Of a stretch of 64,000 bases of DNA, positions 31,487 to 40,721 are shown in pieces. The notes below the pieces were generated by a model, which saw only the letters and a list, made by a program, of their open reading frames with translations, made no database searches and was not told the origin of the DNA. Origin of the DNA: Paragemmobacter amnigenus (GTDB lineage Bacteria > Pseudomonadota > Alphaproteobacteria > Rhodobacterales > Rhodobacteraceae); the NCBI RefSeq assembly GCF_009908265.2, contig NZ_JAAATX020000002.1, positions 310,001 through 374,000 of the forward strand, written 5' to 3'. The stretch's first letter is position 1, and each line of letters starts with the position of its first letter. Both the position numbers and the translations under genes were made by a program.

Positions 31487-31530
31487 ATGCGCGGCCCCCT
31501 GAAGAGGGGGCCGCGCATTGCTTTTGTCTC
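31487..31530 (+). terminator. Strong intrinsic terminator after tpa
   Basis: A perfect 14-bp stem (31487-31500 with 31505-31518) around a GAAG loop is followed by CTTTTGT. It should end most tpa transcription before tauR, so tauR needs its own promoter. Confidence 0.85.
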
Positions 31531-37072: not shown

Positions 37073-37073
<1 letters not shown>

Positions 37074-39844
37074 TGGGGCAGCCGAAGGTCGAGACATCGC
37101 CCAAGGTGTCGGACGAGGTGAAAAAGACCACCTGCTATATGTGCGCCTGCCGCTGCGGGATCAATGTGCATCTGACCAGCGGGAAGGTGACCTATATCGA
37201 GGGGAACCGCGACCATCCGGTGAACAAGGGGGTGCTGTGTGCCAAGGGGGCGAGCGGCATCATGCAGGTGACGGCGCCGTCGCGCCTGCGCGCGCCCTTG
37301 CGGCGGGTAGGGCCGCGCGGGTCGGGGGCGTTTGAAGAGATCACTTGGGACGAGGCGCTGGAGACGGCGGTTTCGTGGTTGAAGCCGCTGCGCGAGGAGG
37401 CGCCGGAGAAGCTGGCGTTTTTCACGGGGCGGGATCAGAGTCAGAGTTTCACGGGGTGGTGGGCGCAGCAGTTCGGCACGCCGAATTATGCCGCGCATGG
37501 GGGCTTCTGTTCCGTCAACATGGCGGCGGCGGGGATTTACACGATCGGGGGCGCGTTCTGGGAATTCGGGCAGCCGGATTGGGCGCATACGAAGTTGTTC
37601 GTGCTGTTCGGGGTGGCCGAGGATCATGACAGCAACCCGATCAAGATCGGCATAGGTCGGCTCAAGGCGCGGGGGGCGAAGGTCATCGGCGTGAACCCCG
37701 TGCGGACGGGGTACAATGCGGTGGCCGATGAATGGGTGGGGATCACGCCCGGGACGGACGGGCTGCTGATCCTGTCGCTGATCCATTGCCTGTTGCAGGC
37801 GGGGAAGATCGACCTCGACTATCTGGCGCGGTGGACGAATGCGCCTTTGCTGGTGAATGGCACGGAGGGGCCCGACAAGGGGCTGATCCTGAAGAATGCG
37901 GAAAGCCAGCCCTTCGTGATCGACAAGCGGACGGGGATGCCTGCGCCTTGGGACGGGGCGGGGGTGCAGCCGGACCTTGGCGCGGTGTGGCAGGGGCACC
38001 GGACGGTGTTCCAGCATATGGCGGAGCGGTATCTGTCGGAGGAATACGCGCCAGAGGCGGTGGCGGGGCGCTGTGGCGTGCCTGCGGGGCGGATCAGGGC
38101 GCTGGCGGCGGAGCTGGCGCGGGTGGCGTTCGATGAGGCGTTCGAGCTGCCTGTCGAATGGACGGATTTCCGGGGGGATCGGCATGAGGGGATGACGGGG
38201 CGGCCTGTCAGTTTCCACGCGATGCGGGGGATTTCGGCGCATTCCAACGGGTTCCAGACGGCGCGCGCGCTGCATCTGTTGCAGATCCTGCTGGGAACGG
38301 TGGAGGTTCCGGGGGGCTATCGGCTGAAGCCGCCTTATCCGAAACCCGTGGAGGCGCATCCCACGCCGCATTTCGTGGCGGCGCCGGGGAAACCCCTGAG
38401 CGGGCCGCATCTGGGCTATGTGCGGGGGCCGGAGAATCTGGCCTTGAAGGAGGACGGGACGCCTTGGCGGATCGACAAGGGCTTCACTTGGGAGAACCCG
38501 TTTTCCGCGCATGGGTTGATGCATATGGTCATCCCCAATGCCCATGCGGGCGATCCCTACAAGGTGGATACGCTGTTTCTGTATATGGCGAACATGTCGT
38601 GGAATTCGTCGATGAATTCGGCCCGCGTCATGGAGATGCTGACGGACAGGGGCGAGGACGGGGAATATGTCATCCCGCGCATCATCTATTCCGATGCCTA
38701 TGCGTCCGAGATGGTGGCCTATGCCGACCTGATCCTGCCCGACACGACCTATCTGGAGCGGCATGACTGCATTTCCCTGCTGGACCGCCCGATTTCCGAA
38801 CCGGACGCGGCGGGGGATGCGATCCGCTGGCCGGTGGTGGAGCCGGACCGTGACGTGCGGGGGTTCCAGTCGGTGCTGCTGGACCTTGGGGTGCGGCTGG
38901 GCCTGCCGGGGATGGTGACGGAGGACGGGTCCGCGAAGTTCAGGGATTACGCGGATTACATCGTGAACCATATCCGCAGGCCCGGTGTGGGGCCGCTGAT
39001 CGGGTTCCGTGGTGCGGACGGGACGGCAGAGGGGCGGGGAGAGGCGAACCCCGACCAGTTGGCGCGGTATATCGAGAATGGCGGCTTCTATCAGGCGCAT
39101 GTGCCCGAGGGGGCAGCCTATATGAAGCCGTGGAACATGGCCTATCAGGATTGGGCGGTGGCGACGTCCTTTTATGAAAGCCCGCAGCCCTATCTGTTTT
39201 CCATCTGGTCCGAGCCGATGCGGAAGTTCCAGCTGGCGGCCGAGGGGCACGGGTTCCTGCAACCGCCCGACCATCTGCGCGCGCGGTTGAAGGTGGCGAT
39301 GGACCCGCTGCCGGTCTGGTACCCCCCGTTCGGGGAGGAGGCGGCGGAGGGCTATCCGGTCCATGCGATCACGCAGCGGCCGATGGCGATGTACCATAGC
39401 TGGGGCAGCCAGAATGCGTGGCTGCGGCAGATTCACGGGAAGAATTACCTGTATGTCCCGACCGCGATCTGGGAGGGGCAGGGCTTTGCCGAAGGGGATT
39501 ATGCGCGGGTGACGTCGCCCAATGGGCAGATCGTGGTGCCGGTGGCGCATATGGCGGCGCTGAACCCTGATACGGTCTGGACCTGGAACGCGATCGGCAA
39601 GCGGCGGGGGGCATGGGCGCTGGACGAGGGGGCGGCGGAGGCCAATCAGGGGTTCCTGCTGAACCATCTGATTTCCGAGGTGCTGCCGGGCGGGGGGCGG
39701 GTTTCCAATTCCGATCCGGTGACGGGGCAGGCGGCGTGGTTCGACCTGCGCGTGCGGGTGGAGCGGGTGGGGCCGCGGGAGGTGGCGGAGCCCGTGTTTC
39801 CTGTGCTGCCGCGCGTGGTGCCGAAGGGGAGGGGGCGGGCGTGA
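37073..39844 (+). CDS. soeA: Sulfite dehydrogenase (SoeA-like) molybdopterin subunit
   Basis: DMSO-reductase-family molybdoenzyme of 923 residues. Cys21, 24, 28 and 56 form the N-terminal 4Fe-4S site (C-x2-C-x3-C-x27-C), and Cys146 in AHGGFCSVNM is placed as a molybdenum ligand. There is no Tat signal, so the enzyme should stay in the cytoplasm, as SoeABC does; polysulfide or thiosulfate reductases would be exported. It is coupled to ackA by a TGATG overlap and followed by SoeB- and SoeC-like genes. The expected reaction is sulfite to sulfate with electrons to quinone. The substrate is inferred from context and lack of export signal. Confidence 0.85.
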
Positions 39845-39861
39845 GGACTGGCTTCGGGAAG

Positions 39862-39974
39862 GCGATTTCTGACGCAGAAATCGCGCCGAATTCTGACGCA
39901 GAATTCGGGGGCGCAGGTGGTGGGTCGGCGGAATTTGCGTCAAATTCCGCGCCGTTTTCTGTGTCAGAAAACGG
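39862..39974 (+). repeat. Array of four perfect 23-nt hairpins between soeA and soeB
   Basis: Four inverted repeats each have a 10-bp perfect stem and 3-nt loop: 39862-39884 (arm GCGATTTCTG, loop ACG), 39886-39908 (CCGAATTCTG, ACG), 39928-39950 (GCGGAATTTG, CGT) and 39952-39974 (CCGTTTTCTG, TGT). They form two back-to-back pairs, 1 nt apart within a pair and 19 nt between pairs. Stem centres vary yet stay fully paired. They fill most of the 139-nt soeA-soeB gap. Confidence 0.9.
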
Positions 39975-39983
39975 GGGTGCGGC

Positions 39984-40721
39984 ATGACCTGCCTGCCGCC
40001 CAAGACCGACAGGAAGCTGGGTCTGGTGATCGACCTTGATACCTGCGTGGGCTGTCATGCCTGCGTGACGGCCTGCAAGGGCTGGAACGATCAGGGCTAT
40101 GGCGCGCCGCTGTCGGATCAGGACCCCTATGGCGCCGATCCTTCGGGCACCTTCCTGAACCGCGTTCACAGCTATGCGGTGCAACCTGATGATAATGCGG
40201 CGCAAATCGTCAATTTCCCGCGGTCCTGCCTGCATTGCGAGGATGCGCCCTGCGTCACCGTCTGCCCGACGGGGGCCAGCTACAAGCGGGCCGAGGACGG
40301 GATCGTTCTGGTCAACGAGGATGCCTGCATCGGCTGCGGGTTGTGTGCCTGGGCCTGCCCCTATGGCGCGCGCGAGATGGATCAGGCGGCGGGGGTGATG
40401 AAGAAATGCACGCTTTGCGTCGATCGCATCTATAACGAGGAACTGCCCGAAGAGGACCGTCAGCCCGCCTGCGTGCGGACCTGTCCGACGGGGGCGCGGC
40501 ATTTCGGGGATCTGGGCGATCCGGACAGCGCGGTGAGCCGTCTGGTGGCCGAGCGCGAGGGGTTCGCGCTGATGCCCGAGCTGGGGACGAAGCCGGTGAA
40601 CCGCTATCTGCCGCCGCGGAAGAAGGACAGGCCCGAGGAGGCGTCGCTGCTGGCGCCGCTTCTGGATATCAGGGCGACGGGGCTGGCCGGATGGCTGGAC
40701 CGCGTTTTGGGGAGGTTCTAA
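39984..40721 (+). CDS. soeB: Sulfite dehydrogenase (SoeB-like) 4Fe-4S subunit
   Basis: A 245-residue polyferredoxin of the DmsB/PsrB/SoeB type that carries electrons from SoeA to the membrane subunit. Four cysteine clusters are visible: CVGCHACVTAC (residues 21-31), SCLHCEDAPCVTVCP, CIGCGLCAWACP and KCTLC with a later ACVRTCP. No signal peptide is present. It is the only gene of the xsc-soeC string that does not overlap its upstream neighbour; the four-hairpin array ends 9 nt before its ATG and may cover its ribosome site. Confidence 0.9.
   Translation: MTCLPPKTDRKLGLVIDLDTCVGCHACVTACKGWNDQGYGAPLSDQDPYGADPSGTFLNRVHSYAVQPDDNAAQIVNFPRSCLHCEDAPCVTVCPTGASYKRAEDGIVLVNEDACIGCGLCAWACPYGAREMDQAAGVMKKCTLCVDRIYNEELPEEDRQPACVRTCPTGARHFGDLGDPDSAVSRLVAEREGFALMPELGTKPVNRYLPPRKKDRPEEASLLAPLLDIRATGLAGWLDRVLGRF

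Follow-up and report, generated by a model that had tools for sequence, protein, structure and literature searches.

The stretch of Paragemmobacter amnigenus DNA analysed here (the window, 64 kb) carries the genes xsc, tauE, ackA, soeA, soeB and soeC in a string that is expected to be an operon. The xsc-tauE, tauE-ackA, ackA-soeA and soeB-soeC junctions are one-base overlaps of stop and start codons (TGATG or TAATG), as the original prediction had described. The gene names given there held for Xsc and TauE, which score above the cut-offs of their protein models, while the match of AckA falls slightly below its cut-off and is better described as a kinase near AckA. The soe names are used by analogy, because the models support the molybdopterin, Fe-S and DmsC-like subunit types for SoeA, SoeB and SoeC, respectively, and nothing more specific. 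Between the end of soeA (39844) and the start of soeB (39984) lies a gap of 139 nt (39845-39983), which is arranged with its flanking genes as follows:

37073-39844, forward strand: soeA-like gene, molybdopterin oxidoreductase; its stop codon lies 17 nt upstream of the hairpin element
39862-39884, forward strand: hairpin 1, outer, forward; 10-bp stem, loop-proximal TG..CA, loop ACG
39886-39908, forward strand: hairpin 2, inner, forward; 10-bp stem, loop ACG
39909-39927, no strand assigned: spacer of 19 nt, which differs between copies
39928-39950, reverse strand: hairpin 3, inner, in reverse orientation; 10-bp stem, loop CGT
39952-39974, reverse strand: hairpin 4, outer, in reverse orientation; 10-bp stem, loop TGT
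39984-40721, forward strand: soeB-like gene, 4Fe-4S subunit; its start lies 9 nt downstream of the element

All four perfect 10-bp stems with 3-nt loops that had been claimed for this gap were located by coordinates, and the loops (ACG, ACG, CGT and TGT) were the same as claimed. The 64-kb window contains no other perfect hairpin of this 10-bp/3-nt type, and the maximum in 20,000 mononucleotide shuffles of the gap was a single one, reached in 3 shuffles. The minimum-energy RNA fold of the gap (-70.3 kcal/mol, z -3.7) consists of the four hairpins together with two further stems, a weak one in the spacer and an outer one that closes the structure, and each hairpin has a folding energy of -11.8 to -12.3 kcal/mol. 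The centroid fold retains only the spacer stem and two of the hairpins (1 and 3). Elsewhere in the window, a GC-rich hairpin with a perfect 14-bp stem and a loop of 4 nt was observed at 31487-31518, 24 nt past a called gene end (31462); it is the sole other perfect stem of at least 10 bp (loops of 3-8 nt) within the window.

The window array is one copy of a dispersed, genus-wide palindromic element of the REP-like kind, built of 2+2 hairpins and hereafter called family I. The original prediction had named a dispersed REP-like family as the main alternative to a local regulatory device and had proposed a genome-wide count of the hairpin pattern as a check; this alternative proved to be the correct identity. 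The pattern CGNNNNYTGNNNCARNNNNCG matched 175 times in the 4.14-Mb genome, compared with 40 matches for the reversed control. A two-hairpin covariance model of family I (R1) gave 126 strand matches in the same genome (G000) when 150 of 2,699 first-look candidates were scored, and we grouped these into about 42 loci. A cluster of at least two hairpins was seen by script in 38 of the 42 loci, with all four hairpins in register in 26 of the 38, and the other four loci (L145, L147, L151 and L159) gave no scripted cluster. In 37 of the 38 clusters the forward hairpins precede the reverse ones or, in L161, only forward hairpins are present; the remaining cluster (L026) has one additional weak match 132 nt off.

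We found R1 matches in all 19 genomes of the genus that were searched, with 1 to 139 per genome when at most 150 candidates were scored in each. In 120 genomes drawn from the taxonomic family, with at most 51 candidates scored per genome, 14 had R1 matches; these were strong in two members of the genus (G000 and G002), and 12 of the other 118 genomes had 1-14 weak matches (best E 1.1e-6) and the remainder none. Named members of the genus include Rhodobacter ruber CCP-1 (G005), Tabrizicola sp. TH137 (G008), Rhodobacter kunshanensis HX-7-19 (G014) and Gemmobacter straminiformis CAM-8 (G003), and other Tabrizicola records (L091 and L093) were placed outside the genus by a SoeAB tree. A RAYT/Y1 transposase was rejected as the mobiliser, as none of the 19 genus genomes had a match to PF01797 (Y1_Tnp, RAYT) over the cut-off and one sub-threshold match was obtained in G008; in the positive control, 5 of 14 genomes had matches. 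The 139-nt gap gave no match in plasmid and phage collections, and a single pattern match in viral contigs contained no family hairpin according to the script. An Rfam search returned one match, sR28, at 14.7 bits against a gathering score of 39. When a filled site (L149) was compared with the empty site in G006, the element was found to lie 1 nt past the stop codon, and no target-site duplication was obvious.

Comparison of 13 elements showed a common plan, in which outer and inner forward hairpins at a 24-nt pitch are followed by a variable spacer and by inner and outer reverse hairpins. The spacer measured 17-28 nt, and 76 nt in one element; the whole element was 111-122 nt long in 12 of the 13 and 170 nt in one, and some single hairpins were imperfect or had a 4-nt loop. 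The loop motif TGACGCA was exact in 100 of the 143 hairpins of G000. Of the 110 perfect hairpins, 104 had feet paired as GCG..CGC or CCG..CGG. Pairing percentages are biased upward because the scripts accept only hairpins with at least 7 paired bases. The five middle pairs are AT-rich and variable with compensation: the 110 perfect hairpins of G000 include 23 middle types, three of which make up 61 hairpins, and 81 have exactly one G-C among these five pairs. The two commonest middle stem types in G000, ATTT and AAAT, are mutually reverse-complementary, and this relation looks like a swap of a hairpin's two arms.

Compensated stem changes, on which the original prediction had based its proposal of selection on structure, hold both among copies and at the orthologous soe site. 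Among 18 copies, both-sided changes were found at 14 of 20 pairs and in 69 cells (shuffled mean 20.3), and four of five covariation measures were above every shuffle, while the fifth, further pair types, was not (139/500). The proposed comparison of soeA-soeB gaps, made across 10 species (9 distinct rows), gave both-sided changes at 6 of 40 pairs and in 12 of 360 cells, a number attained in 0 of 500 shuffles; these shuffles, like those among copies, leave the relatedness of the sequences in place. For example, hairpin 1 at orthologous soe sites has the stem ATTTC/GAAAT or AAAAC/GTTTT. Moreover, 19 of the 42 G000 loci match an element locus of G002 (31 G002 loci compared), and several of these have the whole stem swapped for a different perfect stem. 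The spacer itself forms a hairpin in 4 of the 10 aligned orthologous soe elements (L061, L034, L063 and L037). The spacer hairpin of L037 also shows a compensated change, GGACC/GGTCC versus GGAGC/GCTCC. Mismatches on the transcript strand were G-U or A-C at 5:7 in G000 and G002, 15:5 in four relatives and 2:1 at the soe site, and 22 to 13 when pooled. This ratio does not prove selection on RNA structure.

We then considered the position of the copies relative to genes, using gene calls from a home-made codon-usage script, with which the context counts shift slightly depending on the gene-length filter. The 68 elements of G000 and G002 comprise 30 between convergent genes, 32 between tandem genes and 6 between divergent genes. 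For tandem copies, the median distance is 5 nt to the stop codon of the upstream gene and 115 nt to the start codon of the downstream gene. Gene ends were found within -11 to 20 nt of the element for 23 of the 32 tandem and 40 of the 60 convergent gene ends, and the stop codon is the TGA at the outer hairpin tip in 14 of 92 gene ends. Family I copies are mostly located directly 3' of the stop codons of dozens of genes, which agrees with known REPs as described in PMC3733652.

Some sister species carry a second family of hairpins in the soeA-soeB gap. This family (family II) is unrelated to family I and consists of two adjacent perfect hairpins with CTTCGAAG cores, whose loop and feet are constant and whose stems show compensated changes, located mostly 3' of stop codons; the two hairpins that were folded had an energy of -5.9 kcal/mol each. 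A model built from the soe site (R2) matched in 19 of 19 genus genomes, 5-91 times each when at most 150 candidates were scored per genome. We took 30 family II loci, and the 28 with context were 16 tandem, 9 convergent, 0 divergent and 3 with a neighbour missing. The nine genomes with family I at soe have 91 or more family I matches each, and the four with family II alone at soe have 17 to 88.

The usual soeA-soeB junction among close relatives is a 4-nt ATGA overlap. The comparison covered 84 species: the window, three more, and the 80 best among 452 related loci. The two genes overlap in 57 of these and are separated by a gap in 27, which contains family I in nine species, family II in nine, both in one and another content in eight. 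Of the 24 gaps under 250 nt, 23 (a raw count) contained a perfect stem of 9 bp or more. Nine more distant loci (L045-L053) are mixed, with 4 overlaps and 5 gaps of 74-868 nt, so the view of the overlap as ancestral rests on the nearer relatives, among which it looks to be the ancestral state. A quick SoeAB tree of 82 rows (two of the 84 were too short) was midpoint-rooted for drawing and has 20 weak branches among its 79 inner ones; on this tree the overlap/gap state requires 9 changes. All 17 genus rows are gaps, with families I and II interleaved, and the sister of the window is a species carrying both (L058). From these state changes and this interleaving we conclude that hairpins entered the soeA-soeB junction several times. 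By parsimony, the family switched at least twice within the genus, or an ancestor with both lost one or the other.

Some further junctions were observed in this comparison. A GC-rich third hairpin type was found in the soeA-soeB gaps (157-217 nt) of three species, the earliest to diverge within the genus according to the SoeAB tree (L042-L044, and the named loci L092, L103 and L104). At L089, L090 and L126, soeA and soeB are separated by 585-643 nt. Locus L137 (CP059262.1) carries soeAB, with a SoeB 82% identical to that of the window's genome, and its title, Exiguobacterium profundum, is probably wrong.

We further compared 33 family I sites of G000 with the orthologous 3' ends in four genomes (G005, G006, G010 and G012), omitting the soe site because R2 was derived from it. 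From 132 possible site-genome cases, 7 had no match row and 3 were not placed, leaving 122, which include two with an implausible extension beyond the peptide end (L164 in G005 and L146 in G010). Family I was present at 36 of these ends, both families at 1, family II at 20 and another hairpin at 18, while 47 fell in the class without a hairpin, which includes decayed copies. Family II was found at 21 of the 122 ends compared with 1 of 380 control gene ends (Fisher p 5e-13, a value that takes the cases as independent though the four genomes share ancestry). The control ends were not matched for intergenic room, and 308 of the 380 belong to G000 and G002, two genomes that contain less of family II. 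At least one of the four genomes carries family II at 8 of the 33 sites. Within the loci of the same four genomes, family II was present at 9 of the 38 gene ends close to the centre of the locus and at 0 of 33 others (p 0.003). Some family I sites are empty and some copies are visibly decayed, with uncompensated changes. At one site (L018), G005 and G010 carry a third palindrome, GTAGGATGGGCA..TGCCCATCCTAC, which resembles a GTAG-tagged REP, and G000 and G006 carry family I.

These results suggest that the presence of a hairpin at these gene ends, rather than its sequence, may count. The pair of hairpins seems to be exchangeable, in that an unrelated second family can occupy the same gene end. 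However, families I and II may simply share a preference for roomy 3' ends.

The explanation that we tentatively favour, and to which we give somewhat less than an even chance, is that the element acts as a barrier at the mRNA 3' end of upstream genes, including soeA, that is, as an exonuclease cap built from symmetric elements of replaceable families. In the transcript, the stacked hairpins would shield the mRNA of the upstream gene from 3'-to-5' exonucleases by capping its 3' end, and since the element is symmetric it would serve both strands at converging genes. At soeA-soeB the element would uncouple translation, and soeA mRNA would outlast soeBC mRNA after processing, like malEFG in E. 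coli and puf in Rhodobacter. Of the post-transcriptional role originally proposed, a general 3'-end function is the likeliest part, and a device particular to soe is not supported, because dozens of other genes have the same element behind their stop codons. Gating of soeB translation, which had also been suggested, is unlikely because the G-rich stretch ahead of the soeB ATG lies outside hairpin 4. Several observations speak against the 3'-end barrier. The script found no hairpin at 47 of the 122 orthologous ends and some copies are decayed, indicating that the element is often dispensable; the G-U and A-C counts are uneven between the sets and modest when pooled, one of the five covariation measures lies within the shuffles, and the element could function as DNA.

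A doubtful but specific form of this idea is a 3'-end module defined by structure only, in which a perfect hairpin pair would be kept while families I, II and perhaps others alternate behind the same stops via intermediates carrying both, with stems replaced whole and their stability kept. If true, the cell would hold a stock of interchangeable RAYT-less hairpin cassettes serving as portable mRNA 3' ends.

The copies could instead be selfish or neutral mobile palindromes, spread by some enzyme, and we regard this as unlikely though still a serious rival. Copies would then persist at gene 3' ends only, since insertion elsewhere harms, and perfect stems would arise by conversion between copies or by template switching at the hairpin, in which one arm serves as the template for the other. 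Such an origin fits the wide range of matches per genus genome (1 to 139 when at most 150 candidates were scored in each), the varying site occupancy, the limited menu of stems (23 middle types, three covering 61 of 110 hairpins in G000), the decayed copies and a G-U ratio that is not clearly favourable. It fits less well with the 19 genomes free of Y1_Tnp matches over the cut-off (one sub-threshold in G008), with a gap that has no match in the plasmid or phage collections, and with an unrelated family found at the same gene ends above the control rate.

We consider it improbable that the element is a bidirectional transcription terminator or attenuator for upstream and converging genes, with partial read-through at soeA-soeB. 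The 30 of 68 elements between convergent genes and one terminator-like match, at hairpin 3, would be in line with this, but that single internal match is close to the shuffle mean of 0.4, and the window copy lies inside the expected operon. The array does not show the GC-rich stem followed by a T run of an intrinsic terminator, and its last hairpin is not followed by a T run.

A stop-proximal brake has very little probability in our view. For E. coli REPs, a hairpin no more than about 15 nt from the stop is reported to stall terminating ribosomes and to lower the expression of the upstream gene (PMC12306157), and the element here would act likewise; most copies do start close to a stop, and the stop is the hairpin-tip TGA in the 14 gene ends mentioned above, but the brake fits the window copy poorly because the soeA stop, 17 nt away, is just beyond the 15-nt limit. 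Equally remote is a DNA-level site, a cruciform or single-strand hairpin that would be bound via TGACGCA by a nucleoid or replication protein, as the near-constant motif, the symmetry of the element and the pooled mismatch ratio would allow, but which leaves unexplained both the stop-ward asymmetry in tandem genes and the fact that a family whose loop differs occurs at these same gene ends.

We also compared family I with known systems. REPs and BIMEs, with their GTAG and CGTC super-families (Di Nocera 2013, PMC3733652), are short intergenic many-copy palindromes, often in dimers of opposite orientation and some with stem-loops in the spacer. Most are located less than 20 bp from gene 3' ends, where the neighbouring genes are convergent or in tandem, and the TAG of GTAG REPs can serve as a stop codon (PMC3733652); proximity of REPs to stop codons is also described in PMC12306157. 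Family I is likewise a short, many-copy, intergenic palindrome, and its palindromes are clustered in alternating orientation as in BIMEs. In contrast to REPs, it has no unpaired terminal GTAG or CGTC tag, and its feet are paired (104/110); its near-constant loop, variable compensated stem middle and 2+2 quartet further distinguish it from REPs and BIMEs. Membership of the CGTC super-family, whose REPs have no dedicated transposase (PMC3733652), was rejected because CGTC sits at the hairpin tip and not at the terminus. The text of PMC3733652 contains no mention of Rhodobacter, Roseobacter, Paracoccus or Rhodobacterales.

REPINs share with family I an inverted-repeat unit and a spacer (PMC3116915), but each arm of family I has two hairpins and the genus has no RAYT over the cut-off. 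One REP group of TnpA-REP systems has perfect palindromes (PMC8266576), as does family I, and the abundance of REP classes varies between clades (PMC3686654). Family II resembles family I in its perfect adjacent hairpins, its compensated stems and its presence in the same 19 genomes, and differs in its loop and feet, in having one pair instead of two and in being weaker. Literature searches, among mostly openly accessible papers, returned a description of neither family, and we file families I and II as a new, untagged variant of REP/BIME-like repeats for which no RAYT was detected.

What we expect to interest specialists most is that families are exchanged at orthologous stops. It has long been asked whether REP-like repeats are useful or selfish, and the same gene end with family I, II, both or none across related species provides natural replicates; with no RAYT found, function and spread become separately testable. 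The soeA-soeB comparison also shows how a tightly coupled operon junction can be rewired repeatedly via dispersed hairpins. Hairpins between cistrons are a feature that family I, here known from DNA sequence only, shares with malE-malF of E. coli and with puf, where the intercistronic hairpins possibly stabilise the upstream gene (PMC5927463); unlike these, family I is a dispersed repeat common to unrelated genes.
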